A stretch of DNA of 64,000 nucleotides from contig MKUN01000025.1 of assembly GCA_001897835.1 (NCBI GenBank), positions 1-64,000 of the forward strand, given 5' to 3'. Every line of letters begins with the position of its first letter. Position 1 is the first letter of the stretch. Source of the DNA: Bacteroidetes bacterium 46-16 (GTDB lineage: Bacteria > Bacteroidota > Bacteroidia > Chitinophagales > Chitinophagaceae). Below the pieces are notes generated by a model, which saw nothing but the letters and a program-made list of their open reading frames with translations, was not told the DNA's origin and searched no databases. A program made the position numbers and the translations under genes. Shown here piece by piece: positions 44,081 to 59,227 of the stretch.

Positions 44081-44088
44081 TAATTTTG
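44081..44088 (+). promoter_or_regulatory. -7 promoter element of histidine kinase gene
   Basis: TAATTTTG fits TAnnTTTG and would give a leader of about 95 nt before the GTG at 44190. No TGA-N6-TCA dyad lies at the offset seen for the other promoters of this cluster. Confidence 0.45.
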
Positions 44089-44189: not shown

Positions 44190-45416
44190 GTGGAAAATCA
44201 AATACATAACCAGGAGTTCGAAGCACTGTTCAACAATGCTGCTATAGGTATTATCATTGTTGATGAAGCAGGCGAAATAGTACTGGCCAATAATTTTGCG
44301 CTGAAACAGTTTGGTTACAACGACGGAGAATTACTGCACCAGAAGATCGAAGTGCTCATACCACAGCGATATACCGGCAGGCACGAACAGCACAGGACCA
44401 ATTATCACGGTGCAGGTGCACACAGCAGGCCTATGGGCACGGGCATGGACCTTTATGCCATAAAAAAGAGTGGCGAAGAGTTCCCCGTGGAGGTAAGCCT
44501 GAGTTCATACAATGCCAAAGACAAAAAGTATGCTATAGCCTTCATAAGCGATATCACCATACGGAAACGCTCCGAAGAAGCACTCATTAACCTCAATGCC
44601 GAACTGGAAGAAAAAGTGAAAGAGCGCACCCGATCGCTCAGCGAAACGGTAAAGCAACTCAACCAAAGAATTAAAGAAGCCGAGGAGAAGGACAACCAGT
44701 TAAGGGCCGCCCTTGAAAAAGAAAAGGAACTGAACGAATTGAAATCCAAATTCGTCTCTCTTGCTTCACACGAATTCCGTACTCCACTTAGTACGGTATT
44801 ATCATCAGCATACCTCGTCTCGAAATATGAGACAGCAGAGGACCATCCCAAACGCGAAAAACACCTGCAGCGCATCGTATCCAGCGTCAACATGCTTACC
44901 GACATACTGAATGATTTCCTCTCCGTCGGCAAGATCGAAGAAGGCAGGATACAGGTGCGCATCAGCGAATTTAATATACAGGACCTGGTAAAGGGTCTTA
45001 TAAACGAGTTGCAGCCCATACAAAAGAAGGGCCAAAAGATCGTATATACGCATACCGGCAACGAGCACATCATGCTCGATCCATCTTTGTTCAAGCACAT
45101 CATTATGAACCTCCTCTCCAATGCCATAAAATTTTCACCGGAGCATAGCGAGATCGATCTTATTACAACACATAACAACAAACAATTAAAACTCTCAGTG
45201 GCTGATAAAGGCATGGGCATATCAAAGGAAGACCAGGAACACCTTTTCGAGCGCTTTTTCAGGGGCCATAATGTCACCAATATACAGGGTACGGGCCTTG
45301 GCCTGCATATAGTGGGCAAGTATGCCGAACTGCTCAATGGTGTAGTGACCTGCAACAGCGAGATAAACAAAGGGACAGAATTTATTATTACTTTTAATCT
45401 AAACCAGGAGCAATGA
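44190..45416 (+). CDS. PAS-domain sensor histidine kinase
   Basis: The 408-residue protein starts at GTG; the ATG 27 bp upstream is followed in frame by a stop. It has an N-terminal PAS domain (about 8-125, FNNAAIGIIIVDEAGEIVLAN...EFPVEVSLSS), a coiled coil (about 130-185), the phosphoacceptor His194 in LASHEFRTPL, and an HATPase_c domain (NLLSNAIKFSPEH, DKGMGIS, GTGLGLHIVGKY). No transmembrane segment is seen, so it senses a cytoplasmic signal. It overlaps the response regulator in ATGA, so the two form a pair. The PAS has no clear haem ligand. Confidence 0.92.
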   Translation: MENQIHNQEFEALFNNAAIGIIIVDEAGEIVLANNFALKQFGYNDGELLHQKIEVLIPQRYTGRHEQHRTNYHGAGAHSRPMGTGMDLYAIKKSGEEFPVEVSLSSYNAKDKKYAIAFISDITIRKRSEEALINLNAELEEKVKERTRSLSETVKQLNQRIKEAEEKDNQLRAALEKEKELNELKSKFVSLASHEFRTPLSTVLSSAYLVSKYETAEDHPKREKHLQRIVSSVNMLTDILNDFLSVGKIEEGRIQVRISEFNIQDLVKGLINELQPIQKKGQKIVYTHTGNEHIMLDPSLFKHIIMNLLSNAIKFSPEHSEIDLITTHNNKQLKLSVADKGMGISKEDQEHLFERFFRGHNVTNIQGTGLGLHIVGKYAELLNGVVTCNSEINKGTEFIITFNLNQEQ

Positions 45417-46471
45417 AAACGGTACTGCTCATAGAAGACAATAACGATATCCGCGAGAACATGGCGGAGATACTGGAACTGGCCGGCTATAAGGTATTCA
45501 CTGCCGAGAATGGCAAGGTAGGTGTTGAAGTGGCACAGGAAGAGAAACCCGACCTGATCGTCTGCGACATCATGATGCCTGTACTCGACGGTTATGGCGT
45601 GATACACATGCTGCAGAAAAATCCCGATCTACAGCATACGCCTTTCATCTTCCTGACGGCAAAAGCCGAACGTGCCGAGATACGCAAGGGTATGGAACTG
45701 GGTGCCGATGATTATATTACCAAGCCTTTTGACGGCACCGAACTGCTCAATGCCATAGAAAGCAGGCTGCGCAAGGCTGAGGTTTTACGCAAAGACATAC
45801 CTAAAGGGCTTGAAGGCATCAATTCGCTTTTAAGCACCATCAGCGGCACTGCAGCCATAGAGCAGTTCATCAAAGACAGGTCAACCACGAAATACAAGAA
45901 AAAACAGGCTATCTATACAGAAGGCAATCACGCTACCCGCCTTTATTATATAGAAAAAGGGAAAGTAAAAGTGTACAGGATGAATGATGATGGCAAAGAG
46001 CTTATCACCGACCTGTATGGCGAAGGCGAATTCCTCGGTTATAGCACCCTGCTGGAAGGCAGCGTGTATAAAGAAACCGCTGAGGCACTGGAAGAATGCG
46101 AGATAGCCGCTATACCCCGCTCAGAATTTGACGAACTGGTGAACAGCAACAAAGAAGTGCTGCAAAAATTCGTTCAGCTATTGGTGAACAATGTGCAGGA
46201 AAAAGAACAACAACTACTGAAACTGGCCTACAGCTCGCTGCGCAAAAAAGTAGCCGACACGCTCATCATGCTCAGCAAAAAATACAACCAGGCCAATAAA
46301 GAGCATTTTACTATTGATATCAGTCGCGAAAATCTTGCCCACATTGCTGGCACCGCTAAAGAATCCCTGATACGCACCTTAAGCGATTTTAAAGACGAAA
46401 AGCTGATTGATATACAACAGGGTGACATAGTGCTGCTCAACCAAAAGAAACTGGAGAATATGGTCAACTGA
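45413..46471 (+). CDS. Receiver-cNMP-HTH (Crp/Fnr) fusion response regulator
   Basis: The 352-residue protein joins a receiver domain (phosphoacceptor Asp52, Lys104 in ITKPF) to a cyclic-nucleotide-binding fold (about 150-265) and a Crp-type HTH (about 280-352). The recognition helix TAKESLIRTL has Glu317 and Arg321, the E-x3-R pair that in Crp and Fnr contacts the TGA/TCA half-sites. There is no Fnr-type Cys cluster (only two Cys) and the cAMP-pocket Arg-Ser is replaced by Lys-Glu, so phosphorylation by the partner kinase, not a ligand, is the likely input. It is the best candidate regulator of the adjacent cbb3 operon. Confidence 0.9.
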   Translation: MKTVLLIEDNNDIRENMAEILELAGYKVFTAENGKVGVEVAQEEKPDLIVCDIMMPVLDGYGVIHMLQKNPDLQHTPFIFLTAKAERAEIRKGMELGADDYITKPFDGTELLNAIESRLRKAEVLRKDIPKGLEGINSLLSTISGTAAIEQFIKDRSTTKYKKKQAIYTEGNHATRLYYIEKGKVKVYRMNDDGKELITDLYGEGEFLGYSTLLEGSVYKETAEALEECEIAAIPRSEFDELVNSNKEVLQKFVQLLVNNVQEKEQQLLKLAYSSLRKKVADTLIMLSKKYNQANKEHFTIDISRENLAHIAGTAKESLIRTLSDFKDEKLIDIQQGDIVLLNQKKLENMVN

Positions 46472-46511: not shown

Positions 46512-46705
46512 TAAAAAACATTTATTAAACCAGCTTACCACTTCGGGGCACCCTGTTTATAGCCTTGAGAAGTATTGGGTATATAGCTCCACAAGAGCGA
46601 CATCTAACTAAAAAACATTCACTAAACCAGCTTAGCCCCTTCGGGGCAACCTGTTTATAGCCTTGGGAAGTATTGGATATTATAGCTCCATAGGAGCGAC
46701 CTGTA
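46512..46705 (+). repeat. Two 97-bp direct hairpin repeats
   Basis: Units 46512-46608 and 46609-46705 are similar direct copies, each with TAAAAAACATT, then CAGCTTA and a hairpin GCCCCTTCGGGGC (degenerate in copy 1), CCTGTTTATAGCCTTG, and the palindrome AGCTCCATAGGAGC followed by GACCTGT. They share family features with 7.7 kb and 55.1 kb. They fill the gap between convergent genes and contain no gene. Confidence 0.8.
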
Positions 46706-46726
46706 ACTATTAAGCGCAATATCTGC

Positions 46727-47110
46727 TTACAATATCTCGGAAAGATATTTGTTGAATTCAAACTTCAGCCGGCTGAACTCCTTTTCCATTTTGCTCATAT
46801 CCACGCGTAATCGTTCATGCTTTGCCAGCCAGTCAAGATCAATATTATCATTGGTCCACTGGGTGTTGATACCCTGGCTTTCCGTAGCTATATCATGACG
46901 CAGCAAAGCGATCACAGCATCTTTATTTAAAAAATTATTTTGGAAATATTCCACCTGCTCCAGCAGGGTCTGTTCCAGCTTATCCCGTACTATCTCAGCG
47001 AGGCGATTTTTCAGGTACACGTTCTCCTGCTGCATGTAATCCAGCGTGCGGATCCATGTGCCGTTCTCATGCCTGTATTGCTTTATTTTGCTGTTATCGC
47101 CCATGTACAT
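46727..47110 (-). CDS. Coiled-coil protein of unknown function
   Basis: The ATG at 47110 (AAGG about 6 bp upstream) gives 127 residues; a second ATG at 47104 and a GTG at 47116 are alternatives. The protein is charged and helical, with coiled-coil-like heptads at 20-60 (YMQQENVYLKNRLAEIV) and 95-125 (HERLRVDMSKMEKEFSRL). It has no signal peptide or recognised domain. It lies 96 bp beyond the hemN stop, with its own predicted promoter and a Crp/Fnr-type operator (47142-47206), so it appears to belong to the cbb3 regulon. Confidence 0.75.
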   Translation of the reverse strand: MYMGDNSKIKQYRHENGTWIRTLDYMQQENVYLKNRLAEIVRDKLEQTLLEQVEYFQNNFLNKDAVIALLRHDIATESQGINTQWTNDNIDLDWLAKHERLRVDMSKMEKEFSRLKFEFNKYLSEIL

Positions 47111-47141
47111 ATACACCTTACCACTTTTTTAACGCTCCCCG

Positions 47142-47149
47142 TAAAATTA
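47142..47149 (-). promoter_or_regulatory. -7 element of coiled-coil gene
   Basis: On the minus strand TAATTTTA, one mismatch from TAnnTTTG and no -33 TTG upstream. Its 3' end is 58.5 bp from the centre of the dyad at 47195-47206. Confidence 0.55.
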
Positions 47150-47194
47150 TCCTTGCATAACATCCTTATTAATAACGAAGGTCAATCTAAAAAC

Positions 47195-47206
47195 TGACGT
47201 ATATCA
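47195..47206 (-). promoter_or_regulatory. Putative Crp/Fnr-type operator upstream of coiled-coil gene
   Basis: TGA-CGTATA-TCA. On the minus strand it reads TGATATACGTCA, matching the other two sites in TGAT-nTnn-GTCA. Its outer flanks are only weakly symmetrical. Confidence 0.55.
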
Positions 47207-48565
47207 CTATACGGCCTTACTGAAGGCCTGTTCTTTCATGCACTGTTTCCGCTGCAGGTGCAGGTCGAATGCACTGCATATATTCCGCAAAAAACTATGC
47301 CCGATGTCCGTAACGCGAAGCCCTTCATGATCAAAATGCAATAAGCCGTCCGCCTCCATTTCCTCCAGCTGCGGAAAACTGTATTCCTCAAGGATATGCA
47401 TGTCCTGGGCAGCAAATCCTGTTTTTCCCATACACATTACATCCAGTATATACCTGCGGAAGTGTTTATCTTCCTCATCAAGGAAATAGCCCCTGTGCAC
47501 AGCAGGGAGGCCGCGTTCTACCTGCCTGTAATATTCATGCAATGTTTTCTCATTCTGGGCAAAAGCATTGCCGGTATCGCTTATCGCCGATACCCCCAGG
47601 CCCAATAGTATAGCACTTCGTTGCGTAGTATATCCCATAAAGTTCCGGTGCAGCCGCTGCTCCTGCTGGGCCTTATACAATTCATCACCCGGCAGGGCAA
47701 AGTGGTCCATCCCTATATCACGATAACCATGCTGCTCAAACAGTTCTTTGCCGGTACGGTACAGTTCCATCTTCAATTGCGCATCGGGCAGGTTGCGCTC
47801 ATCAAAAAGCCGCTGGCCCCTGCTGGTCCAGGGCACATGAGCATAGCTGTAAAATGCCACCCGGTCGGGCCTCAGCGAGATGCTCTGCATTATGGTCCTT
47901 TCAATACTGTCTTTTGCCTGGAAGGGCAGGCCATATATCAGGTCAAAGTTTACGGAAGTAAAACCTGCATCCCGCGCATTTTCCATAGCTGCCTGCACCT
48001 GCTCAAAGGCTTGTATCCTGTTTATGGCCTGCTGCACTATAGGGTCATTATCCTGTACACCATAACTTATCCGCCTGAAGCCCAGCTTATACAGGGCTTC
48101 GAGTTGTTCAGCAGTTGTATTATTAGGGTGTCCTTCTATCCCAAATTCATATTCAGGGTGCAGCACACAATTGTCAATGATCCCCAACACCAGTTGCTCC
48201 AGGTGCTGCGGCGAAAAAAAGGTCGGTGTGCCGCCGCCAATATGCAGTTCACGCAGCAAAGGTTTTTCATGCATCATTTCGCGGTACAGCTCCCATTCTT
48301 TCAGTATGGCTGCTATATATGGCTGCTCTACATTGTGGTTGGTGGTTATCTTTTTGTTGCAGCCGCAATAAGTGCACAACGATTCGCAAAATGGCAGGTG
48401 TAAGTACAAGGAAATACCTTGCCCGTTGCCTTTCCTGAACTGCTCCTGGAAGTTCAGTTCCCAGCGATCTGCATCAATGGCCCCGTCCCAGTATGGTACC
48501 GTGGGGTAACTGGTGTAGCGGGGCACGGGCACATTATATTTATTCAATAATTCTTGCTGAAGCAT
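47207..48565 (-). CDS. hemN: Oxygen-independent coproporphyrinogen III dehydrogenase
   Basis: From the ATG at 48565 the radical-SAM protein has 452 residues. It carries the 4Fe-4S motif CESLCTYC, LHIGGGTPTFF, FGIEGHPNNTT and NFDLIYGLPFQ, and a HemN C-terminal domain (GVSAISDTGNAFAQNEK, LRRYILDVMCMG-like). It oxidatively decarboxylates coproporphyrinogen III without oxygen and so supplies haem under low oxygen, matching the cbb3 genes upstream. A TTG nine codons upstream, overlapping the previous stop, is a less likely start. It is the last gene of the cco operon. Confidence 0.92.
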   Translation of the reverse strand: MLQQELLNKYNVPVPRYTSYPTVPYWDGAIDADRWELNFQEQFRKGNGQGISLYLHLPFCESLCTYCGCNKKITTNHNVEQPYIAAILKEWELYREMMHEKPLLRELHIGGGTPTFFSPQHLEQLVLGIIDNCVLHPEYEFGIEGHPNNTTAEQLEALYKLGFRRISYGVQDNDPIVQQAINRIQAFEQVQAAMENARDAGFTSVNFDLIYGLPFQAKDSIERTIMQSISLRPDRVAFYSYAHVPWTSRGQRLFDERNLPDAQLKMELYRTGKELFEQHGYRDIGMDHFALPGDELYKAQQEQRLHRNFMGYTTQRSAILLGLGVSAISDTGNAFAQNEKTLHEYYRQVERGLPAVHRGYFLDEEDKHFRRYILDVMCMGKTGFAAQDMHILEEYSFPQLEEMEADGLLHFDHEGLRVTDIGHSFLRNICSAFDLHLQRKQCMKEQAFSKAV

Positions 48566-48588
48566 AAAAAAAGCTCTTTTGAGATCGG

Positions 48589-49299
48589 TCAATGTTTATG
48601 GCAACATGATGCTTTCACACTATGCTGGTTCACTTCGATTGCAGGGCTCAGGTAAGGGATACCAAGGTTCATGCCCCTTAATACGAACAGGCTGCCGAAT
48701 ACGAACAGGAAAACCGGCACCAGTCGCCTGAAATGATTTACCCGTACAAAACTCATCTTGTTCCTTAATACGGTTATACCCACCATCATGGGCACCGTAC
48801 CGAGTCCGAACACGTACATCAGTTCCATAGCCTGTATAGTGCCCCCTGTTGTAATAGCCGCAGATAGTGCCATATACACCAGTCCGCAGGGCAGCAGTCC
48901 ATTCAGGAAGCCTGCCATGAAAAGCGACCCTAAGCCTGGCTTAGCTATGAAATGCCCCAAATATTTACGCACATACCCTGTCCAGGGCAATACCACTTTT
49001 ACCGAATTGCCGGGGAGGAACGACAGCACCCCGGCAACCAGCAACAGCGCTCCCAGTCCTATGGAGATATACTGTTGCAGGTGTGGAGTAAACATATTGC
49101 TGAATGAATGCAGCACCATTGCCAGCAATGCATAGGTCGTAATGCGCCCAAAATGATACAATGCGATCCCCGCAATTTTTTTAAAGCCCTGCAGGAACCG
49201 GAATGGCATCACCCACACTATGGGGCCGCACATGCCTGCACAGTGCAGGCTGCCTGTAAAGCCCATCAACAACGCTATACTGAAACTGAAGGTGCTCAT
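48589..49299 (-). CDS. TauE/SafE-like membrane protein of the cbb3 cluster
   Basis: The 236-residue membrane protein has six or so helices with the two small-residue motifs GFTGSLHCAGMCGPI and LNGLLPCGLVYMALSAA, which contain conserved Cys residues (CxxxC, PCG). It ends in ASCCHKH, a probable metal-binding tail. Related proteins in cbb3 clusters are thought to move or sense copper. It overlaps fixH by ATGA and precedes hemN by 23 bp, so it belongs to the cco operon. Confidence 0.85.
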   Translation of the reverse strand: MSTFSFSIALLMGFTGSLHCAGMCGPIVWVMPFRFLQGFKKIAGIALYHFGRITTYALLAMVLHSFSNMFTPHLQQYISIGLGALLLVAGVLSFLPGNSVKVVLPWTGYVRKYLGHFIAKPGLGSLFMAGFLNGLLPCGLVYMALSAAITTGGTIQAMELMYVFGLGTVPMMVGITVLRNKMSFVRVNHFRRLVPVFLFVFGSLFVLRGMNLGIPYLSPAIEVNQHSVKASCCHKH

Positions 49300-49739
49300 T
49301 TACTAAGATCTAAGCCCGATTCCTGGTAATATTTCTTCCCATCTGCTTCCAGTTCTATCTTAACTGTATAATGCGTCTTTTGCAAAACAGCACGGGATAC
49401 TTCCACATCACCGTTTACGGTATTAAGGGGCATTTCTTTGTCCCATGCTGCATGTACCGGCGAGTAAAAATGGATAGTGCCGGCCAGTTGCTTACCCTGT
49501 AGCTCTGCAGGCAGTTCTATACTTACCGCCTGTGCATTGGCGTGTACGCCTATTGGCTGCGATAGTGTTGACTGGTTCTTACCGGCATTGATTACGTCCT
49601 GGTATTTTATCTCGTCCGAATAATAGGTATCCGATACCAGGTCGAAATGCTGGTGGGTACTGGCTACAACCATAGTGCCGATCAACAGCACAAAGCCCAC
49701 ATACAACATCGTTATTTTCACACCCCAACTGATCTTCAT
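49296..49739 (-). CDS. fixH: FixH family cbb3 assembly protein
   Basis: The 147-residue protein has one N-terminal transmembrane helix (about 8-30) and a periplasmic beta domain with the family feature SDEIKYQDVINAGKNQS and VHAAWDKEMPLN. FixH is part of the cbb3 accessory set fixGHIS. It follows ccoG by 27 bp and its stop overlaps the next start as ATGA. Confidence 0.85.
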   Translation of the reverse strand: MKISWGVKITMLYVGFVLLIGTMVVASTHQHFDLVSDTYYSDEIKYQDVINAGKNQSTLSQPIGVHANAQAVSIELPAELQGKQLAGTIHFYSPVHAAWDKEMPLNTVNGDVEVSRAVLQKTHYTVKIELEADGKKYYQESGLDLSK

Positions 49740-49766: not shown

Positions 49767-51182
49767 TTAATTGCCTGTGAATGGCCCAAGGAAGGTGGTA
49801 TTGACCGTTCTTATTTTTTCCTTGCCATCATACACGGCTATTTTCAGTTGTGTCTTTCTTTTGGTCACAAATTTGTTATCCAGGTATATGAACATGGTAC
49901 CGGTGGTATAACTGTCCCGGGGCACCAACAATCTTGTTTCACCTACAAGACTAATGGTGCCATCAAAATTTTCGGGTTTAAAGCTCAGCTCCTTATTCTT
50001 GAAGGTTTTATTCAGCAGCTTGTAACTGTACAGGTTACTGATCTTATTATTGGCCTGCTCCTGGTACAGTTGTCCCGGTGTGCGCAATATGTTCACGCCT
50101 ACATCGGTACGGCTTGCCAGCAGGAACACCTCAACACCCAGCAGCACGCACATCACCGCTGTATATGCCTTCATACGCCCGGTAAAGCGCATTTTCTTAT
50201 TATTGGCTATGTTCTCTTCCGATGCATACCGGATCAGCCCCGTGGGCAGGCCTACGGCATTCATCATCTTATCGCAGGCATCTATGCAGGCCGTGCAGTT
50301 CACACATTCCAGTTGGGTGCCATTACGTATATCTATGCCTGTGGGGCATACTTTTACACATTGTGCACAGTCTATGCAGTCGCCTATTGTACGCTCTTCG
50401 TTCTTTTTGAATTTTCCTCTTTGCTCACCGCGTTTATAATCATAGGCGACCACGATCGAGTTGCGGTCGAGCAGTACGCCCTGCATACGGCCATATGGGC
50501 ATATTACAGTACATACCTGTTCTCTGAGCCAGGAATAAACGAAAAAGAATACCGTGGTAAATGTGCATAGCGAAGTGAATGTACCCAGGTGCTGGCCCAG
50601 CGGTTCACTGATCATCTTCTCCAGTTCATCTATACCTATGATATAGGCCAGGAAAGTATTGGCGATGATAAAACTGATGAGCCAGAAGGCGGTCCACTTG
50701 GCCAGCTTTTTAGTTACTTTTTCGGTGTTCCATGGCCCATGCTTCAGCATCTTTTGTTTAGCCGCATCTCCCTCTATAAGGTATTCCACTTTACGGAACA
50801 CCATCTCCATAAATATGGTCTGCGGGCAGGCCCACCCACAGAATATACGACCAAATACTACCGTGAACAGGGCTACGAATACGATGAAGATGATCATACC
50901 CAGCCCGAAGATGAAGAAGTCCTGCGGCCAGAATATTTGCCCGAAAAGGATGAACTTACGTTCCAGTATATTCAACAGGAACAATGGGTGCCCTTCGTAC
51001 TTGATAAAGGGCAGGGCAAAGAACACGGCCAGGTAAAGTATGCTTACCCATGTGCGGGCATTATACAGTTTTCCATGCGGTTTCTGCGGGAACATCCATA
51101 CGCGCTTACCCTGTTTGTCTACAGTAGCTACATTATCCCGGAATGTATTTACATCCTGTTTCTCTGAGGCCTGGCTATTCAT
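49767..51182 (-). CDS. ccoG: Cytochrome c oxidase accessory protein CcoG (FixG)
   Basis: The 471-residue membrane protein has six transmembrane helices and polyferredoxin sites: CGWACP and CTVICPYGRMQ (membrane-embedded Cys) and two 4Fe-4S motifs CIDCAQCVKVCPTG and CVNCTACIDACDK at about 265-310, then a C-terminal FixG immunoglobulin-like domain. In other bacteria CcoG reduces Cu2+ to Cu+ for cbb3 assembly. It lies 7 bp after ccoP. Confidence 0.95.
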   Translation of the reverse strand: MNSQASEKQDVNTFRDNVATVDKQGKRVWMFPQKPHGKLYNARTWVSILYLAVFFALPFIKYEGHPLFLLNILERKFILFGQIFWPQDFFIFGLGMIIFIVFVALFTVVFGRIFCGWACPQTIFMEMVFRKVEYLIEGDAAKQKMLKHGPWNTEKVTKKLAKWTAFWLISFIIANTFLAYIIGIDELEKMISEPLGQHLGTFTSLCTFTTVFFFVYSWLREQVCTVICPYGRMQGVLLDRNSIVVAYDYKRGEQRGKFKKNEERTIGDCIDCAQCVKVCPTGIDIRNGTQLECVNCTACIDACDKMMNAVGLPTGLIRYASEENIANNKKMRFTGRMKAYTAVMCVLLGVEVFLLASRTDVGVNILRTPGQLYQEQANNKISNLYSYKLLNKTFKNKELSFKPENFDGTISLVGETRLLVPRDSYTTGTMFIYLDNKFVTKRKTQLKIAVYDGKEKIRTVNTTFLGPFTGN

Positions 51183-51189
51183 ATCTTTC

Positions 51190-52368
51190 CTAATTTACTG
51201 CCACACTTTTGGCTTTGCTGCTGTCAGCTTCCCCATTTGCCGGTGCGGCACTATCCTGTTCTATATATAGTTCCCCTTGTTTATCCTTCGGTGCAGCGGG
51301 TTTGGTACCGTGCAGCGATTTAACATAACTTGCCAGTTGGGCTATCTGCTTTGGCGAGTAATCGTCTTTCCAGCTCTTCATGCCCTTATCCTGCCAGCCG
51401 TATTTTATCGATTTAAAGATGTCTTTGATACCACCACCATGCAGCCAGTAATCATCGGTAAGATTAGGCCCTACACCTCCGCCACCGTCTTTGGCATGGC
51501 AGGCAAAACAAACGGTCTGGAATATCTGCTCACCTGCCGACAGGTCTGAAGCTGTTGTAAGTACCGTGACCGTATTCTCATCCACATTATTAGCCGATTT
51601 GGCCAGGTAGGCGGCCTTTTCCTCCTCTGCTTTTTGCATTTCTGCCACATACTCATCATGCGAGCTGGGCCCGGTACCGGATATATGAAAACGGTATAGG
51701 TAAATGCATGCAAATACTATGGTAACATAGAAACCATACTTCCACCACGGCGGCAGGCTGTTGTCCAGCTCGCGTATGCCATCGTAATTGTGGTCCAGCA
51801 TGATATCCTGCTCTTTCTCTATAGGCACCACGTTATTGAAACGGTCCCAGAATGCAGCGCGTGCTTTTATTTTAGCTGCTTTGGTCGGTACCGGCCTGTT
51901 GCTGATGAGCCGGGCCATGCTCCTGATATAGAAGGCAAGACCTATCACAATGAGCAGCTCAAGCGCTATCACACTTACCAGCCAGTAAAAATCGGTATTG
52001 GCCACACCGCTTATATAAGGTGCCGTATACGTACTCACTGTACTGTCTGCATCAGCAGCAAATGCGTGGAACGATGGCAGGCTCAGCGCTATCAGCAGCA
52101 AAATGACCTTGGCTGCATTATTATTTTCCTTCTTTGCCTTTTCGGCACGCATCTTATCGCGGTACACAAGCGTGAGCTGGCTCAGCACATTGGCCAGCAC
52201 ACCTATTGCAAAAACCAGTATGAACATCAGGCTCACCAGGCTTATCAGCCCGGCGTTGAATGTATTACCGGCCTTGTCGCCTGCCGCAGCTTCCGCCGCC
52301 CCGGCCATCCCGGGCAATAACAGCAGTATCATAACAGGCAGGGAAATTTTATTGAGATTTTTACGCAT
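51190..52368 (-). CDS. ccoP: cbb3-type cytochrome c oxidase subunit III (CcoP), monohaem
   Basis: The 392-residue protein has an N-terminal signal-like helix, a second and third hydrophobic segment (about 40-62, 88-105), the FixP_N anchor DNSLPPWWKYGFY with a helix (about 205-230), and one c-type haem site CFACH with axial Met in GMKSW. Canonical CcoP has two haem c motifs; here only one is present. The extra 100-residue N-terminal region with two hydrophobic segments resembles other Bacteroidota CcoP. It passes electrons from cytochrome c to subunit II/I and is 2 bp from ccoQ. Confidence 0.9.
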   Translation of the reverse strand: MRKNLNKISLPVMILLLLPGMAGAAEAAAGDKAGNTFNAGLISLVSLMFILVFAIGVLANVLSQLTLVYRDKMRAEKAKKENNNAAKVILLLIALSLPSFHAFAADADSTVSTYTAPYISGVANTDFYWLVSVIALELLIVIGLAFYIRSMARLISNRPVPTKAAKIKARAAFWDRFNNVVPIEKEQDIMLDHNYDGIRELDNSLPPWWKYGFYVTIVFACIYLYRFHISGTGPSSHDEYVAEMQKAEEEKAAYLAKSANNVDENTVTVLTTASDLSAGEQIFQTVCFACHAKDGGGGVGPNLTDDYWLHGGGIKDIFKSIKYGWQDKGMKSWKDDYSPKQIAQLASYVKSLHGTKPAAPKDKQGELYIEQDSAAPANGEADSSKAKSVAVN

Positions 52369-52589: not shown

Positions 52590-54773
52590 TTAATTATTGT
52601 TTGCCGTTTTCTGTTCCAGTTTAATATCTGTTCCCAGCCTTTGCAGGTAGGCGATCACAGCTATGATTTCACGGTCGCTCTTCGTTTTGATATTGTCTTT
52701 CGCAAGATTTGCTGCTATAGCATCTGCCTGCTTCAGCAGGTCACTGTTCGCCTGCCGGTCATAACCTTCAGGATAAGGCACGCCCAGCGTCTGCATCGCC
52801 CTGATCTTGGCCGGCGTTATCGCTGTGTCTATCTTATTGTCAAACAGCCACTGGTAATTGGGCATGATAGATCCCGGCGACATACTGGTAGGCTCATACA
52901 TATGGTTAAAGTGCCAGCTATCGGGATATTTACCGCCTTCGCGTGCCAGGTCGGGGCCTGTGCGCTTACTGCCCCACTGGAAGGGATGATCATACACGAA
53001 TTCACCGGCTTTGGAGTATTCGCCATAGCGTGCCACCTCGCTGCGGAAGGGCCTTATCATCTGGCTATGGCAGTTATAGCAGCCTTCGCGCACATATATG
53101 TCACGCCCCTGCAGTTCCAGTGGTGTATATGGCTTCACGCTGCTTATGGTCGGTATGTTCGATTTCACCATGAAGGTGGGTATCATTTCTACCAGGCCAC
53201 CTATGCCCACTACGATAAGGCTCAGCACCAGCATCTGTACCGGGCGGCGTTCTATCCACCTGTGCCAGTGTGCTTTGCCATGTGGCACATATACTTTTGC
53301 AAGCGGTGCTGCTTCGGCAGCCTCTTCATCCACGGCCTTGCCGCTTCGTATGGTCTTCCACAAGTTATAGCCCATCATCAGGGCACCTATCAGGTACAGT
53401 GTGCCACCTATGCCGCGCATGGCATAGAAGGGGCGCATTTGCTGCACTGTCTCTATGAACTGGTATTTCAGTTGTCCTTCGGGAGTAAATTCTTTCCAGG
53501 CAAGGCTCTGCATGAAACCTGCCCAGTACATCGGCACCACATAGAAGATGATACCCAGCGTACCGATCCAGAAGTGCCAGTTGGCCAGCTTTTGCGAGTA
53601 CAGGTCAGTGCGGAATATCCGCGGTATCAGCCAGTACAGCACGCCAAATGTCAGGAAGCCGTTCCAGCCCAGCGCGCCCACATGCACGTGCGCAATGGTC
53701 CAGTCGGTAAAGTGGCTGATGGCGTTCACACTCTTCAGGCTCAGCATTGGCCCTTCAAAAGTGGCCATACCATACGCCGTTACCGCCACTACCATAAATT
53801 TGAGCACCACATCCTCGCGTACCTTATCCCATGCACCGCGCAGGGTCAGCAGGCCGTTCAGCATACCACCCCACGATGGCGCTATCAGCATGATCGAGAA
53901 CACCGTGCCCAGCGACTGGGCCCAGTCGGGCAGCGCAGTATATAGCAAGTGGTGCGGGCCCGCCCATATATACAGGAATATCAGCGCCCAGAAGTGTATG
54001 ATCGAAAGCTTGTAAGAATATACCGGCCTGTTGGCTGCCTTCGGCAGGAAGTAATACATCAGGCCCAGGTAAGGTGTGGTCAGGAAGAAGGCTACCGCAT
54101 TGTGCCCGTACCACCACTGCACCAGTGCGTCCTGCACACCGGCATACCATGAGTATGATTTCATCCAGGAGTAAGGCAGTTCCATCGAGTTCACGATATG
54201 CAGCATGGCCACCGTCACCCATGTGGCTATATAGAACCATATGGCCACGTAGAGATGCCTTTCGCGCCTTTTGATGATGGTACCGAACATATTGATACCG
54301 AATATTACCCATACCAGTGTAATGAGGATATCTATCGGCCATTCCAGCTCGGCATATTCTTTACCGGTGGTATAGCCTGCCAGCAGGGTCACCGCTGCAC
54401 TTACAATGATCAGTTGCCAGCCCCAGAAATGCAGTTTGCTCAGCAGGTTGCTGAACATACGGGCCTTGGTAAGGCGTTGCAGCGAGTAATAGACACCCAT
54501 AAAGATGCCATTACCCACAAAGGCAAAGATCACGGCATTGGTATGCACCGGCCTTACACGGCCGAAGGTAGTAGCGGCCATACCCATGTTCAGGTTGGGG
54601 AAGACCAGTTCGAATGCGGCGAACAAGCCGGCCAGCATACCCACGATCCCCCAAAACACCGTGGCATAGGCAAACATCTTTACGATCTTGTTATCGTAAT
54701 AGAATTTTTCCATTTGCACTGCCGGCATTGAGGCATCCTGTTCAAATTGCTCGGAATGTGAGATAGTACTCAT
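52590..54773 (-). CDS. ccoN: Fused cbb3-type cytochrome c oxidase subunit I/II (CcoNO)
   Basis: The 727-residue protein fuses CcoN (about 1-470) with CcoO (about 490-727). CcoN keeps the haem and copper ligands: RPVHTNAVIF with the first His, VQWWYGHNAVAFFLT, IWAGPHHLLYT (the His pair), and IAHVHVGALGWN with two further His. CcoO has one membrane anchor (PVQMLVLSLIVVGIGGLVE) and one haem-c site CYNCHSQMIRP. The enzyme is the high-affinity terminal oxidase for microaerobic growth. It is the second gene of the operon, 11 bp after ccoS. Confidence 0.96.
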   Translation of the reverse strand: MSTISHSEQFEQDASMPAVQMEKFYYDNKIVKMFAYATVFWGIVGMLAGLFAAFELVFPNLNMGMAATTFGRVRPVHTNAVIFAFVGNGIFMGVYYSLQRLTKARMFSNLLSKLHFWGWQLIIVSAAVTLLAGYTTGKEYAELEWPIDILITLVWVIFGINMFGTIIKRRERHLYVAIWFYIATWVTVAMLHIVNSMELPYSWMKSYSWYAGVQDALVQWWYGHNAVAFFLTTPYLGLMYYFLPKAANRPVYSYKLSIIHFWALIFLYIWAGPHHLLYTALPDWAQSLGTVFSIMLIAPSWGGMLNGLLTLRGAWDKVREDVVLKFMVVAVTAYGMATFEGPMLSLKSVNAISHFTDWTIAHVHVGALGWNGFLTFGVLYWLIPRIFRTDLYSQKLANWHFWIGTLGIIFYVVPMYWAGFMQSLAWKEFTPEGQLKYQFIETVQQMRPFYAMRGIGGTLYLIGALMMGYNLWKTIRSGKAVDEEAAEAAPLAKVYVPHGKAHWHRWIERRPVQMLVLSLIVVGIGGLVEMIPTFMVKSNIPTISSVKPYTPLELQGRDIYVREGCYNCHSQMIRPFRSEVARYGEYSKAGEFVYDHPFQWGSKRTGPDLAREGGKYPDSWHFNHMYEPTSMSPGSIMPNYQWLFDNKIDTAITPAKIRAMQTLGVPYPEGYDRQANSDLLKQADAIAANLAKDNIKTKSDREIIAVIAYLQRLGTDIKLEQKTANNN

Positions 54774-54784
54774 GTATTGAATCT

Positions 54785-54949
54785 TTAAGATTGTTGGTTT
54801 AATTCATTGTTATTATCGTCATATAGCATGCGCATGGCAGCACCTTCCCTGTCCTCGTACTGGTTGTTCTTTACACTCCAGATAAATGCAAGCAGGAATG
54901 ATGCTGCCACCACTATACTTGCTATTACCAAAACGAAGAGTGCACTCAT
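54785..54949 (-). CDS. ccoS: Cytochrome oxidase maturation protein CcoS
   Basis: This gene is 55 codons including the stop (54 residues). It starts MSALFVLVIASIVVAASFLL, a single membrane helix, and continues AFIWSVKNNQYEDREGAAMR, the CcoS signature with the conserved W(S)VKxxQYxD segment. CcoS is needed to insert haem b and copper into CcoN. It is the first gene of the eight-gene cco operon, 11 bp before ccoNO. A -7 box and a Crp/Fnr-type dyad lie upstream. Confidence 0.9.
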   Translation of the reverse strand: MSALFVLVIASIVVAASFLLAFIWSVKNNQYEDREGAAMRMLYDDNNNELNQQS

Positions 54950-54964
54950 GCTTTAAAATTTCTG

Positions 54965-54972
54965 TAAAACTA
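54965..54972 (-). promoter_or_regulatory. -7 element of the cco operon
   Basis: On the minus strand TAGTTTTA (one mismatch from TAnnTTTG); no -33 TTG. Its 3' end is 16 bp from the ccoS ATG and 58.5 bp from the centre of the dyad at 55016-55031. Confidence 0.55.
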
Positions 54973-55015
54973 TCGTGGCGATCAGCGGCATATTATGACT
55001 ATGCTCAGGGCAAAT

Positions 55016-55031
55016 GATGATCTAAGTCATC
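55016..55031 (-). promoter_or_regulatory. Putative Crp/Fnr-type operator of the cco operon
   Basis: GATGA-TCTAAG-TCATC, a perfect 5-bp dyad with 6-bp spacer and the TGA-N6-TCA core. Confidence 0.7.
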
Positions 55032-55110: not shown

Positions 55111-55626
55111 TTGACCAGCCCCTTATGGGCCACCTGTTTATAGCCCCTGCAACTGCCATCACATATAAGCTCCGCAGAAGGAACTTCGCACATCACCTCG
55201 CCTCACCTCTCTGCCACAATTTGACCAGCCCCTTAGGGGGCCACCTGTTCATAGCCCCCCAGCTACCATCACACATAAGCTCCGCAGAAGGGGCTTTCAC
55301 ACATCACCTCGTCCTAACCTCTCTGCCACGATCTGGTAGCCCCTTAGGAGCCACCTGTTTATAGCCTCCGCTATTACCATCACATATAAGCTCCGCAGAA
55401 GGAACTTCACACATCACCTCGCCCTCACCTCTGCCACGATCTGGTAGCTCCTTAGGAGCCACCTATTCATAGTCCCGTAGCTACCGTCACATATAAGTTC
55501 CGCAGAAGGGGCTTTCACACATCACCTCGTCCTAACCTCTATGCCACGATCTGGTAGCCCCTTAGGGGCCACCTGTTTATAGCCTCCGCAGCTGCCGTCA
55601 CATATGAGCTCCGTAGGAGCGGCCTG
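55111..55626 (+). repeat. Tandem array of five ~110-bp hairpin repeats
   Basis: Repeats start near 55111, 55221, 55332, 55440 and 55550 (periods 110, 111, 108, 110; the last is cut after about 76 bp). Each has AGCCCCTTAGGGGC-like hairpin, CACCTGTTTATAGCC, a spacer with CATATAAGCTCCGCAGAAGG, and TTTCACACATCACCTCG. The final unit ends in ATGAGCTCCGTAGGAGCGGCC. They separate the cco operon promoter from ccoI (stop at 55649), and no gene lies in 54950-55648. Confidence 0.88.
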
Positions 55627-55648: not shown

Positions 55649-58111
55649 TCAATTACCGCTTTTCAATGACAGCCCCAGCCTGCGGGCCATCACGGTGCTG
55701 GCACCTGTAGTGATCAGCACGATGCTCACGGTACTTATGGGCATCAGTATAGCCGCGATCATCGGGGCCATATGCCCCTGCATAGAGATCGCAAGACCCA
55801 CGATATTGTATAATATGGATATGCCAAAACTGAATGTAATAATATGCTTGCCGTTTGCTGCCAGCTTCAACAGCCTGGGCAACTTGCCGAATTTACGGGC
55901 ATCGAGTATCGCATCGCAGGAAGGGGTAAAATTATTGATATCATCCGCCAGGCTTATTCCTACATTGCTTTGTTGCAGCGCCCCGGCATCATTCAGTCCA
56001 TCACCCATCATCAGCACGCGGTGGCCTCTTTCCTGTAGTTTACCTATATAGTTCAGCTTGTCTTCCGGCTTTTGTTCAAACAAGAGCTCGCTCCCCGCCC
56101 CCAATAGTTCATGCAGCCTGTTCTTTTGCCTGCTGTTATCACCCGAAAGCAATGACAGCGAGTACCTCTTCTTCAATTCGGGCATTATCCCGGGTATGGC
56201 CTCCCGGAATGCCGGTAATATCTCAAAGGCGGTCACCTCGTCATTTATCCTGATGTACACATTGGCCTTTTCTCCTTTGGTCACCACGCCCGTAAAGCCT
56301 GCCGAGCCCACACGTATCCTGTTACCCCCGGCATAGGCTTCTATGCCTTTACCTTTTATTTCGGTCCATTGCTCCAGTTCACATAGCCCACGTATGCCCA
56401 GCCATGCACTTATCGCCTGGCTATAGGGGTGCCTGCTCGATACCACCATATTATACACCCAGTCTTTTTCGTCTTCACTGAGCTGGTGGCCTGTTGTCGC
56501 AAACTCTTCGCTGCCCTGTGTCAGGGTGCCGGTCTTGTCGAAGACGATATGGTCTATCTTTCCTATCTGCTCTATCACCGTAGCATCGCGCAGGTACAGG
56601 CCGTTATTGCTCAGTATGCGCAGCAGGTTACCATTGGTATAATTGGCCGATAGCAGCAAGGCACATGGGCAGGCAACGATCAGCATGGCCGATACGCTGG
56701 GTAATACCTTTGCAGGGTCATGCATAGCCCAGTATAGGGCAGTTATCCCAGCCAGTACCAAAAGTATATAAGTAAAATACCGGCTCAGCAGGTGTATGAT
56801 GCTGTGCTCGCTGTTTTGCACTTCTTTGTTCCTCCCAAATGCATGGTGATTCCAGAGCGAGGTAAGGTAACTACCGGCTACAGGTTTTATTACCTGCATC
56901 CTTACCTGTTCACCGCGCAGTTTGCCACCTGCATATACCGTATTGCCCGGCAATATGCGTACAGGTTCGCTCTCCCCCGTCACAAAGCTATAATCCACCA
57001 GCGCGGTATTATCCAGCAGCACTGAGTCAGCCGGTATGATCTCGTCATTATATAACTGCACCACATCTTTCTCCTTCAGCTCCTGCAGGCTCCTGCTTTC
57101 CAGGCCCTTTAGGGTAACCACATTCACCGCTATCGGGAAGTAAGCTTTATAATCCCTGTGGAACGATATGGAACTATAAGTGCGGTCCTGTACAATGCGC
57201 CCCACCAGCATAAAGAATACGATGCCGCTCATACTGTCCAGGTAACCTGGTCCTGTACCGGTGCCTATCTCGTATATGCTCCGTGCGTAGGTAATAATGA
57301 GCGCCAGCGCTATGGGCGCATCTATATTCAGCGTCTTTTGCTTCAGCCCTTTCCATGCCGATACAAAGAATTCCGACGCGCTGTAAAAGAACACTGGCAC
57401 CGACAAAACGAGGTTCAGCACGCGGAATAGCGTAGCATATTGCTCTTCTATCCCCGTTCCCGGTGCCAGGTATTCCGGGAAGCTCATCATCATGATATTA
57501 CCGAAACAGAATCCTGCCACACCCAGCTTATATATCCTCGCTTTGTTCGTGTATTTGGGCCTGGTTTTGCCTGCATCTTCCAGGCTTATGTATGGCTCAT
57601 AACCTACGGTAGCAAGTAGTTCCACCACCTGGCGCAGGCTTATCAGCTCCCTGTTATAGTGTACCCTAAGTTCTTTGGTGGTGAAGTTGAGCCTGCTTTC
57701 TGTTATACCCTTATTCAGTTTATGCATATGTTCCAGCAGCCACATGCAGGAGCTGCAGTGTACACCGGGAATGTAAAATGTGATGATCACATTCCGGCCA
57801 TCTGTGAACTTGTAGAGCTTTTGAGCAATATCCTCATTGTCCAGGTAGGCAAACTTATCATTACGCACAGGCTTTATCTGCGATAGCCCGGGGTGCGATT
57901 GTATCTTGTAGTAATCGCAGAGCCCGTTCTCATTCAGTATTTCGTACACCAGCTTACAGCCCTCGCAGCAAAACGTCTTGTCCCCTATATGTATATGATC
58001 ATTGGCACAGGACACCCCGCAATGGTAACATAATGTCTCCTCCTGAACAGGTTTCGATACAATGATGGTATTCTTACCCTTAGCTGTTTGCATGGATGTT
58101 CTTTTGGGCAT
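55649..58111 (-). CDS. ccoI: Copper-translocating P1B-type ATPase CcoI (FixI)
   Basis: The 820-residue ATPase has an N-terminal Cys-rich YHS/HMA region (CYHCGVSC, FCCEGCK), an HMA domain with CSSC (about 120), eight membrane helices with the CPC motif (VACPCALLLS), TGES, phosphorylation site DKTGTLTQ, the HP motif SSRHPYSQ and GDGLND. FixI-type pumps export Cu+ for cbb3 assembly. The ATG at 58111 overlaps the preceding gene by 32 bp; a second ATG at 58093 overlaps it by 14 bp. It is cotranscribed with the RIC-like gene, separate from the cco operon. Confidence 0.92.
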   Translation of the reverse strand: MPKRTSMQTAKGKNTIIVSKPVQEETLCYHCGVSCANDHIHIGDKTFCCEGCKLVYEILNENGLCDYYKIQSHPGLSQIKPVRNDKFAYLDNEDIAQKLYKFTDGRNVIITFYIPGVHCSSCMWLLEHMHKLNKGITESRLNFTTKELRVHYNRELISLRQVVELLATVGYEPYISLEDAGKTRPKYTNKARIYKLGVAGFCFGNIMMMSFPEYLAPGTGIEEQYATLFRVLNLVLSVPVFFYSASEFFVSAWKGLKQKTLNIDAPIALALIITYARSIYEIGTGTGPGYLDSMSGIVFFMLVGRIVQDRTYSSISFHRDYKAYFPIAVNVVTLKGLESRSLQELKEKDVVQLYNDEIIPADSVLLDNTALVDYSFVTGESEPVRILPGNTVYAGGKLRGEQVRMQVIKPVAGSYLTSLWNHHAFGRNKEVQNSEHSIIHLLSRYFTYILLVLAGITALYWAMHDPAKVLPSVSAMLIVACPCALLLSANYTNGNLLRILSNNGLYLRDATVIEQIGKIDHIVFDKTGTLTQGSEEFATTGHQLSEDEKDWVYNMVVSSRHPYSQAISAWLGIRGLCELEQWTEIKGKGIEAYAGGNRIRVGSAGFTGVVTKGEKANVYIRINDEVTAFEILPAFREAIPGIMPELKKRYSLSLLSGDNSRQKNRLHELLGAGSELLFEQKPEDKLNYIGKLQERGHRVLMMGDGLNDAGALQQSNVGISLADDINNFTPSCDAILDARKFGKLPRLLKLAANGKHIITFSFGISILYNIVGLAISMQGHMAPMIAAILMPISTVSIVLITTGASTVMARRLGLSLKSGN

Positions 58112-58628
58112 TCTTTATTTTGGGCAGCAATACCTCTTGCTCCAGGTAGTAAAGCTCAGTGAGCATGCTCTCCAGCAGCGATAATTCATTTTGCAGCATT
58201 TTACGCTCATATTCATCCGGCACATCCTTTTCCTGCAGGCTCACCGCCTTTATCTCTTCCAGCGTATTATGTATGTGTGCGTGCGATACCGCCACATCCA
58301 TCACGATACCCATATGTGCTGTCTTGCAGCCACCTTTGCAGGCACTGCAATCATGTCCTTCTTTATTCTTTCGTGACAATTCTCCCAGGTAGGGGAACAG
58401 GATATCTTTACGATATAGCAGGTATTCCTTTATTTCAGCCACCACTTTGGTATATGGCAGCAAATGCTCCATTATTGCCGCACCCTTTCCCCTTAGCTTG
58501 TTGGCTGCCACCCCGGCACTTTTGCATAAGCCCTCCATAGTAGTGTAGTATTCTTTATAGAAATGATCGGCAAGTTCCTGCAGTTTGTAATTACGGTATT
58601 GTGCAAAAAGCGTGTGGATCATAAACAT
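58080..58628 (-). CDS. Hemerythrin/RIC-like helical protein (degenerate)
   Basis: The frame is open further upstream, but that part overlaps the EXPERA gene and lies beyond a -7 box, so the start is ATG 58628 (182 residues) or 58622 (180). The protein resembles RIC/YtfE-type di-iron proteins in spacing: LLYRKDILFPYL, then VSHAHIHNTLEEI, then LYYLEQEVLLPKI match KEEQVLFP, HEHDDHGEALEHI and HLENNILF. Several metal ligands are changed, and CSACKGGC adds four Cys. It overlaps ccoI by 32 bp. RIC proteins repair iron centres or bind NO/O2; function here is inferred. Confidence 0.55.
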   Translation of the reverse strand: MFMIHTLFAQYRNYKLQELADHFYKEYYTTMEGLCKSAGVAANKLRGKGAAIMEHLLPYTKVVAEIKEYLLYRKDILFPYLGELSRKNKEGHDCSACKGGCKTAHMGIVMDVAVSHAHIHNTLEEIKAVSLQEKDVPDEYERKMLQNELSLLESMLTELYYLEQEVLLPKIKNAQKNIHANS

Positions 58629-58636
58629 CGTTTTTG

Positions 58637-58644
58637 CAAATGTA
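58637..58644 (-). promoter_or_regulatory. -7 element of RIC-like/ccoI unit
   Basis: On the minus strand TACATTTG, a perfect TAnnTTTG. There is no TTG at the -33 position. Its 3' end is 58.5 bp from the centre of the dyad at 58688-58703. Confidence 0.65.
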
Positions 58645-58683
58645 CCCTCAGGGGAAAGGAAGATTAATGACCACCAATAAGTA

Positions 58684-58707
58684 AAAAGGTGATCTTCGTC
58701 ACCTTTT
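58684..58707 (-). promoter_or_regulatory. Putative Crp/Fnr-type operator (or terminator) before the RIC-like gene
   Basis: AAAAGGTGA-TCTTCG-TCACCTTTT, a perfect 9-bp dyad with the TGA-N6-TCA core at 58690-58701. It lies just past the EXPERA-gene stop and its minus-strand reading ends in TTTTTAC, so it could also be the terminator of that gene; both roles are possible. Confidence 0.6.
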
Positions 58708-58711
58708 ACCT

Positions 58712-59227
58712 TTATTGCCTTGTCCGGGCAGCAAAAGGTGTCACAGACCGCCACATCCGGTACAATACCATTATGGGGAATATCAGCCATGCTGCATTGG
58801 CCAGCAGCACGCGTTGCAGGTGCGGTGTAGCATGTTCGCCGCACACCTCTTCAAAGAGAATTATGGTCACATTGGTTATCATTACCGCGGCCCATATAAT
58901 GCTGCCAAAGCGTATCCAGTTCTTACCTTTTATATAGGCATATATCGCTACAAGGTAAAAGGGCCCGAAAAAGAGGGCATCTATCCATATTGTTGCACGC
59001 CACCATGCAGGCCTCGCCATCAGCACAGGGTCAAAATTCCGACCGTACCAGTGCACAAGGTCCACCATACTTTCAGGTGGCCATACCGGGTATTGAAAGT
59101 TATCCGGGTTCGCGATCACCAACTGCTCTATATCCACTATATAAGTGATAAAGCCCAGGTTGATGATAAAAAATATAACAATGGCAATATCAACCGGCCG
59201 TTTCGAAAGTGGCAATGATTGAGGCAT
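58712..59227 (-). CDS. EXPERA-domain (emopamil-binding-like) membrane protein
   Basis: The 171-residue protein has four membrane helices and an EXPERA pattern: IAIVIFFIINLGFITYIVDIEQLV, then WYGRNFDPVLMARPAWWRATIWIDALFFGPFY, KGKNWIRFGSIIWA and later helices. The conserved WY...DP...P.W...WID segment matches emopamil-binding/TMEM97-type proteins, which bind sterols or isomerise sterol double bonds in eukaryotes. The bacterial substrate is unknown. It begins 9 bp after acs stops, so the two are cotranscribed. Confidence 0.7.
   Translation of the reverse strand: MPQSLPLSKRPVDIAIVIFFIINLGFITYIVDIEQLVIANPDNFQYPVWPPESMVDLVHWYGRNFDPVLMARPAWWRATIWIDALFFGPFYLVAIYAYIKGKNWIRFGSIIWAAVMITNVTIILFEEVCGEHATPHLQRVLLANAAWLIFPIMVLYRMWRSVTPFAARTRQ

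Follow-up and report, generated by a model that had tools for sequence, protein, structure and literature searches.

This work examines a putative regulatory pair encoded in a 64,000-nucleotide stretch of DNA (referred to here as the window; contig MKUN01000025.1, positions 1 to 64,000, of assembly GCA_001897835.1) from Bacteroidetes bacterium 46-16, a member of the Chitinophagaceae whose genome is a 4.36-Mb draft of 53 contigs. The pair consists of HK, a sensor kinase with a PAS domain, and REG, a regulator in which a receiver domain is fused to a Crp-type output; their reading frames overlap by 4 nt. Past REG, on the opposite strand, the gene order is a 129-aa gene, hemN, sulE, ccoH, ccoG, ccoP, ccoNO, ccoS, ccoI, and a gene labeled "RIC-like" by an earlier note on this DNA (Table 1). 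That note placed the pair beside hemN and the cco operon and regarded it as the probable controller of the cbb3 oxidase (cco) genes. Our analysis points to a shortened version of the FixL-FixJ-FixK relay, in which HK and the fused REG would act at promoters with tandem dyads and an FNR-type regulator would take the same slot in relatives; we assign this reading a probability of about 0.77.

A sensor kinase and a receiver-Crp fusion

REG matched three Pfam families above their cutoffs, namely, Response_reg (residues 4 to 116), cNMP_binding (160 to 246), and HTH_Crp_2 (279 to 349). Across 65 distinct homologues, receiver residues D9, D52, and K104 were invariant, while residue 82 was Thr in 58 proteins and Ser in 7. 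Invariant residues of the output part were G313, A315, E317, R321, and L323. Cysteines within residues 141 to 352 numbered 0 to 3 per protein (none in 41 of the 65) and were unclustered, and the place of the cAMP-pocket Arg82-Ser83 of CRP is occupied in REG by Tyr219-Lys220. The description of REG in the earlier note thus holds in each respect: a receiver with Asp52 and Lys104 joined to a Crp-type cNMP/HTH part, the pair E317-x3-R321 in the recognition helix, no Fnr-like Cys cluster, and no cAMP-pocket Arg-Ser.

An AlphaFold model of REG (mean predicted local distance difference test score [pLDDT], 84.8; predicted template modeling score [pTM], 0.59) retrieved CRP, GlxR, and FNR as its best Foldseek matches, with TM-scores of only 0.27 to 0.31 (query-based, for the rows shown), and the packing of its domains is unsure. 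The best NCBIfam match of the output part was PRK11753, with 105.8 bits against a cutoff of 266. REG is like CRP in this match and in its Glu-x3-Arg recognition pair, and unlike CRP in missing the cAMP Arg-Ser and carrying an N-terminal receiver. With FNR, FnrL, and ANR it has in common the Crp fold, the TGA-N6-TCA type of dyad, and a predicted position near -41.5; it differs from them in having a receiver and no Cys cluster. In all, REG looks like a competent receiver combined with an output that appears equipped for neither cAMP nor an Fe-S cluster, and we infer from its domains and residues that phosphorylation may take the place of ligand control in this Crp-type protein.

HK carries PAS, HisKA, and HATPase_c domains, all above Pfam cutoffs, and lies directly before REG; both genes are where the earlier note had placed them. 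Of the 65 distinct REG homologues, 50 have a homologue of HK immediately before them. Compared to solved structures, the window PAS domain gave 10jx, a histidine-kinase PAS (E value, 3.1e-11), DosP (1.6e-9), and FixL (2.2e-9). A VIA-align structure look-up of HK mainly returned rows for residues 172 to 407, barely covering the PAS domain and thus carrying no information on a relation to FixL. The window HK fell short of the curated FixL model score (850 bits), its highest-scoring model overall giving 192.8 bits; the partner kinase of locus L269 scored 173 bits against the FixL model, over the PAS part only.

His65 of HK aligned with the heme His of FixL and falls inside a predicted helix (residues 59 to 74). 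For wider comparison, a kinase alignment (n = 51) combined 34 of the 50 HK-REG pairs (loci below L242) with 17 of 20 loci from outside the window's family; L284 and L285 were missed by the motif filter, and L287 has no upstream frame. In this alignment, the place of the heme-ligand His is held by His in 48 of the 51 partner kinases, although such a residue alone would be no proof of heme binding by HK. Arg220 of FixL controls bound O2; at its place, Arg stands in 15, Met in 21, and Leu in 5 of the 51 partner kinases. The 15 Arg-bearing kinases belong to families f2, f3, f5, f8, f9, and f10, together with three of the window's family that accompany a more distant REG type. Equating Met86 of HK with Met95 of DosP was rejected, as the alignment places Met86 at DosP Arg97 and FixL Arg220. 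Since the best solved relative of one f3 partner kinase is FixL (8js5, 1.5e-34; 1dp6, 4.1e-33) and Arg is present in other families, HK-REG probably originated from the pairing of a FixL-type sensor and a fused regulator, the distal residue having been changed later in the window's clade. In two loci of family f5 (L282 and L283), the partner-kinase frame upstream of REG is 1076 and 1128 aa long, and the sensor part therefore seems to have been exchanged there.

Linkage to cco genes and tandem-dyad promoters

Among 147 genomes of the window's family, full-length REG was found in 108 and ccoNO in 100, with both in 84 (Fisher p, 5e-5). REG was counted at matches over 300 bits, plus G078, whose REG gene is truncated at the edge of a contig; ten weaker matches (E values of 1e-30 to 1e-39) were excluded. 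In 42 of the 84 genomes with both, REG and ccoNO are no more than 15 kb apart, in several orders and strands. In a sample of the phylum, 56 of 395 genomes contained REG, 46 of them outside the window's family. Loci were fetched from 20 of these 46 genomes (hand-picked, mostly best scoring), and 12 of the 20, from five families, had ccoN/P/G/H near REG, including L287, with no kinase found upstream and weak cco matches. The other 8 had no ccoN/P/G/H in the fetched stretch, L284 having a ccoI-like gene and L279 a weak one. The placement of the pair beside hemN and the cco operon in the window is as the earlier note gave it, and linkage to cco is seen within and outside the family. A related-locus search of genome contigs gave 7 loci, 4 of which are full-length REG.

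On plasmid pHsw1 of Hymenobacter swuensis, HK, REG, two truncated hemoglobins, a copper ATPase, ccoS, ccoN, ccoG, fixH, and sulE stand together; the ATPase gene and ccoN are each preceded there by dyads at a 23-bp spacing. The truncated hemoglobins of this cluster (L305, 5471-19134) are of group III. The plasmid is typed as mobilizable, and the module may therefore move as a unit.

The slot beside ccoNO can also hold a different regulator. FNR-type counts rest on at least 40 places in 39 genomes, down to 41% identity (G105, G110, and G050 on matches of 41 to 43%); places of REG, FNR-type, and compound-element matches are those among the matches listed, and the genome lists for REG (family and phylum), ccoNO, and the C4-type Crp protein considered below omit some genomes lacking a match. 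The 100 cco genomes divide into 64 with REG only, 15 with the FNR-type only, 20 with both, and 1 (G032) with neither; G032 is the only REG-less cco genome without a dyad at ccoS. The 15 REG-less, dyad-bearing cco genomes encode a free-standing Crp protein that bears CxxC and additional cysteines; in 11 of them, its gene is no more than 4 kb away from ccoNO. For two members scanned, the best match was Fnr: PRK11161 (E value, 1.2e-29; 103 bits against a cutoff of 228). FNR has four Cys ligands, three close to the N terminus and one in the core. In the L191 frame, Cys13, Cys16, Cys62, and Cys115 are present in 22/22 sequences, Cys25 in 18/22, and Cys41 in 19/22, a spacing unlike that of Escherichia coli FNR. 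Within the 100 cco genomes, the neighbor of ccoNO is REG in 42, the FNR-type in 22, and both in none (p, 8e-7 if the genomes are independent).

The recognition helix has the consensus GTATESLIRTLSDFK in REG proteins (GTAKESLIRTLSDFK in the window) and GTATESTIRLLSEFK in FNR-type proteins, which is nearly that of REG; GTATES-x-IR-x-LS-x-FK is common to the two. In a tree carrying a long-branch warning, the REG proteins grouped in a single clade (99/100) that excluded the FNR-type rows, with REG of Chitinophaga rupis placed among the REG proteins of the window's family. Fusion in situ of a receiver to a local FNR gene was rejected given this separation, which therefore argues that the slot switched between two old lineages. 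These lineages appear to exchange places at one cco slot over one kind of DNA site.

The three dyads mentioned in the earlier note are all present, before the 129-aa gene, ccoS, and the "RIC-like" gene, but a second dyad-like stretch 22 bp downstream of each had been overlooked. Judged by number alone, the dyads of the window do not exceed chance expectation (4 matches versus 3.76 expected), and TTGA-N6-TCAA was rejected as a motif because it showed no enrichment there (22 matches with up to one mismatch versus 26.3 expected). TGA-N6-TCA occurs at 46 strand-specific sites (23 places, both strands), and only the three dyads have a -7-like box exactly 57 nt on (binomial p, 0.003), a box being defined as 5 or 6 of 6 letters, with a background of 0.6% per position. 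The window dyad sites are conserved in relatives.

To describe this arrangement more widely, ccoS promoters (n = 96) were aligned on the first dyad, TGAYnAAARTCAT. The second dyad lies exactly 22 bp further in 91 (64 exact, 27 with one mismatch), and none of the 96 has one at spacings of 14 to 21 or 23 to 27. A TAnnTTTG box starts at +57, its TTT letters being present in 96, 96, and 93 promoters, TA in 86 and 93, and G in 67. The anchor dyad was by choice 70 to 130 nt before ccoS, so that the letters of dyad A are fixed and constitute no result. Promoter counts rest on 98 of the 100 cco genomes, as the G137 contig starts inside ccoNO and G105 gave no ccoS match; the set of 96 omits G065 and G032, which are dyad-less. 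Within 220 bp upstream of ccoS, a dyad is present in 62/63 genomes with REG only, 15/15 with the FNR-type only, 19/19 with both, and 0/1 with neither.

A Crp/Fnr site centered at -41.5 before a -7 box is a classic activator position (class II rule). The sigma-A box TAnnTTTG of Flavobacterium psychrophilum is placed at -12 to -5 (PMC9723704); from this position and the spacing, the dyads would therefore lie at about -63.5 and -41.5, the latter following from the 35 nt between dyad B and the box (a start predicted from geometry). Among hemN regions elsewhere (n = 10), 7 dyads were found, 4 with a box at the 35-nt spacing, as for a single near site. Where REG is divergent from ccoI, one or two dyads stand in between, and REG may therefore control itself there. 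In the window, the 260 bp 5' of HK contain no dyad.

The compound element, defined as two dyads 22 bp apart plus a TAnnTTT box at a set distance, was found in 103 of the 147 family genomes, and the reversed pattern in none. By reader, it is present in 74/87 genomes with REG only, 18/21 with both, 9/18 with the FNR-type only, and 2/21 with neither, i.e., in 101/126 genomes with REG or FNR versus 2/21 without. The two reader-less genomes that have it are 72% and 60% complete. A profile search of the 21 reader-less genomes found no full-length REG, giving single-part matches only. The element also occurs in 17 of 23 genomes that have REG and lack both FNR and cco, which ties it to REG itself.

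In the window's genome, a dyad plus box gave 14 matches versus 3 in the control. One tandem dyad outside the window (G000:C37:9273-9366; L297, L298), with -7 boxes on both sides, is flanked by an acetyl-CoA hydrolase/transferase gene and, on its other side, by a pair of genes for Hsp20 and a universal stress protein. These CoA-transferase and Hsp20-Usp genes are candidate regulon members. Apart from the three matches of the window and two at C37, nine remain, most of which look like chance, and several lie inside reading frames.

Proposed relay and rival explanations

REG is favored as the dyad reader and cco controller because of its linkage to cco, the conserved activator-like geometry, the association of the compound element with the two readers, and the dyads at 33/33 ccoS promoters of REG-only genomes without FNR and without the C4-type Crp protein considered below. 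The role that the earlier note proposed for REG is supported in a sharpened form: REG would be one of two interchangeable readers, the kinase FixL-related, and the promoter a tandem site.

The relay we propose builds on domains, conserved residues, linkage, mutual exclusion at ccoNO, promoter geometry, and element-reader association, all read directly from sequence; oxygen as the signal, heme, phosphotransfer, DNA binding, and activation rather than repression would complete it. Low oxygen would render HK active, and phosphate would pass to Asp52 of REG. The phosphorylated receiver would let the Crp part bind, as dimers, to the two TGA-N6-TCA dyads near -63.5 and -41.5. From -41.5, helped from -63.5, REG would recruit RNA polymerase and activate the TAnnTTTG promoter. 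Within the window, control by REG is predicted for ccoS-ccoNO-ccoP-ccoG-ccoH-sulE-hemN as well as for the 129-aa gene and the gene preceding ccoI. The FixJ and FixK steps would thereby be merged in REG, with a stand-alone FNR-type regulator occupying the slot in related genomes.

In the FixL-FixJ-FixK system of rhizobia and Caulobacter, a PAS kinase, a receiver protein, and a Crp-type activator switch on cco and hemN; there, FixJ is separate and its main target is the fixK gene, whereas REG fuses both and the intermediate transcription step is missing. FixJ has a LuxR/NarL-type output, in contrast to the cNMP plus HTH_Crp output of REG. Loss of FnrN in Caulobacterales and its substitution by FixLJ are inferred in PMC4999443. 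In Rhizobium leguminosarum, as described in PMC7888657, hFixL-FxkR-FixK and FnrN form two-component and FNR-type branches that converge on cbb3 genes, as proposed here; both branches act in one strain, whereas the cco slot examined here holds one or the other, although 20 of the 100 cco genomes have both. The FixL-FixJ-FixK relay and FnrN replacement by FixLJ are already known in Alphaproteobacteria (PMC4999443, PMC7888657). A survey of open-access literature, limited to open-licence papers and hence weak, retrieved no receiver-Crp fusion or FixL-type control of cbb3 in Bacteroidota and no named cbb3 oxidase regulator for that phylum.

Several observations weigh against the relay. The PAS domain of the window HK is distantly FixL-like, 10jx being a better match than FixL, and HK has Met86 where FixL has Arg220. 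In 11 cco-linked loci (L224 to L234), no HK homologue was found in the fetched stretch, and the kinase must therefore be elsewhere. Of the 16 cco genomes that lack REG, 15 still have a dyad at ccoS, so that a dyad by itself is no pointer to REG. In G065, where REG is linked, the 220 bp upstream of ccoS contain no TGA-N6-TCA. In the 20 cco genomes with both readers, either could act at ccoS. The exact compound element is absent from 25 of the 126 reader-bearing genomes (9/18 with FNR only, 13/87 with REG only). The p values ignore shared ancestry, and the anchor dyad was picked with an exact +22 partner where available, which slightly favors the 22-bp spacing.

The dyads could instead be read by another Crp/Fnr protein, with REG acting elsewhere. 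Besides REG, the window's genome encodes two HTH_Crp_2 proteins above the cutoff, one of 223 aa (C4:15211) that opens with the Cys-rich stretch DCNLKSCFFCQAC and a short one of 201 aa (C28:10031). The C4 type, however, has a different recognition helix (GTTYETVFK) and occurs in just 46 of the 147 genomes (E values up to 1e-40); the 33 dyad-bearing ccoS promoters cited above are from REG-only genomes that lack it, and the compound element is found in 0/4 genomes with the C4 type that lack REG and FNR. The short type is the only Crp match (E values up to 1e-6) of the dyad-less cco genome G032, which is one case. We consider a different reader unlikely. Still more improbable, in our judgment, is that HK and REG adjoin cco by chance or old synteny, phosphorylation being irrelevant and REG a plain nucleotide-bound Crp protein: REG does retain the cNMP fold, but its cAMP Arg-Ser is missing, its three receiver residues never vary, and the cluster has been rearranged around cco.

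A somewhat stronger rival, although one we still doubt, has REG binding the dyads as a repressor, or as an activator with a non-oxygen signal (redox, NO, CO, light, or another PAS ligand), the Met marking a changed ligand. The replacement of Arg by Met86 is consistent with this, PAS domains bind many ligands, and Hsp20, universal stress protein, and CoA transferase as target candidates also suit general stress. Against it, both FixL residues are kept in 15/51 partner kinases, six other families included, and a predicted site near -41.5 before the -7 box occupies the activator position. Furthermore, a strong induction of cbb3 when oxygen is limiting is reported for F. psychrophilum, without a named regulator in the portion of PMC9723704 considered.

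Beyond the shortened relay itself, we lean slightly toward a broader proposal: the cbb3 regulon of Bacteroidia may be controlled by one or the other of two regulators that read a single kind of tandem-dyad promoter, namely, an FNR-type sensor or a FixL-type kinase with a receiver-Crp fusion that omits the FixJ-to-FixK transcription step, the oxygen sensor being swapped and the promoters kept. In the window's clade, the kinase would further have lost the FixL Arg, and its His together with Met hints at a changed gas or redox signal. If the relay reading is right, one shortened relay would explain cbb3 control in many Bacteroidota genera and would offer a ready example of sensors being replaced while their DNA sites remain unchanged. 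It would also predict that a fused receiver, once phosphorylated, can serve the function that Fe-S clusters or cAMP serve elsewhere in the Crp family.

Remaining features of the locus

Coordinates of all features are collected in Table 1. Since hemN lies directly behind sulE and has no dyad promoter of its own, the cco operon probably ends with it; a dyad-like TTGAGATCGGTCAA at 48579-48592 was rejected as a hemN promoter, having no -7 box at +35 or +57.

TABLE 1 Genes, key codons, and promoter elements of the window
Feature	Coordinates	Strand	Basis
HK, soluble PAS-HisKA-HATPase sensor kinase, 408 aa, GTG start at 44190	44190..45416	+	Pfam; HK homologue upstream of REG
His65 codon, counterpart of FixL heme-ligand His	44382..44384	+	Alignment to FixL and DosP chains
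Met86 codon, FixL Arg220 place	44445..44447	+	Kinase alignments
-7 box TAATTTTG 5' of HK	44081..44088	+	Promoter inspection
REG, receiver + cNMP-binding fold + Crp-type HTH, 352 aa	45413..46471	+	Pfam; AlphaFold
Asp52 codon, predicted phospho-acceptor	45566..45568	+	Invariant, 65/65
Glu317-x3-Arg321, recognition helix	46361..46375	+	Invariant, 65/65; pattern also in FNR-type occupants
y129, 129-aa gene adjoining REG	46727..47116	-	Homologue in 16/20 fetched loci of closest REG proteins
Dyad A, 129-aa gene	47195..47206	-	Motif search
Dyad B, 129-aa gene, 1 mismatch	47173..47184	-	Motif search
-7 box TAATTTTA, 129-aa gene	47142..47149	-	Motif search
hemN, probable start re-read as ATG at 48565	47207..48565	-	TIGR00538
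sulE, DsbD_2/TauE-SafE-like membrane protein	48589..49299	-	PF13386; placed as in Hymenobacter pHsw1
ccoH (FixH)	49296..49739	-	PF05751
ccoG	49767..51182	-	Annotated ccoG at corresponding Hymenobacter plasmid position
ccoP	51190..52368	-	PF14715, PF13442
ccoNO fusion	52590..54773	-	Annotated ccoN at corresponding Hymenobacter plasmid position
ccoS	54785..54949	-	PF03597
Dyad A, ccoS	55018..55029	-	Motif search
Dyad B, ccoS, exact (0 mismatches), 22 bp from A	54996..55007	-	Motif search
-7 box TAGTTTTA, ccoS, +57 from dyad A	54965..54972	-	Motif search
ccoI copper ATPase	55649..58111	-	Synteny; P-type ATPase at corresponding Hymenobacter plasmid position
Gene upstream of ccoI ("RIC-like")	58080..58628	-	Homologue beside ccoI in several relatives
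Dyad A, gene upstream of ccoI	58690..58701	-	Motif search
Dyad B, gene upstream of ccoI, 2 mismatches	58668..58679	-	Motif search
-7 box TACATTTG, gene upstream of ccoI	58637..58644	-	Motif search

The "RIC-like" label given to the gene upstream of ccoI is backed by no Pfam (E values up to 0.5) or NCBIfam (E values up to 1e-10) match. The 129-aa gene likewise has no family match in Pfam (E values up to 0.5) or NCBIfam scans. It is kept with the closest REG proteins also in four cco-less genomes (L063, L066, L071, and L072), and a dyad is present upstream of its homologues in 17 of 19 regions examined; its product is probably a member of, or helper for, the REG regulon.

Adjoining the ccoI operon is a gene for an EXPERA (EBP superfamily) membrane protein (58712-59227, minus strand). 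The interval separating ccoI from the ccoS promoter contains a 110-bp tandem repeat of 4.5 copies (55117-55613), and two copies related to it, about 98 bp apart and with CCTGTTTATAGCC-like stretches in common, lie 3' of REG (46512-46709).

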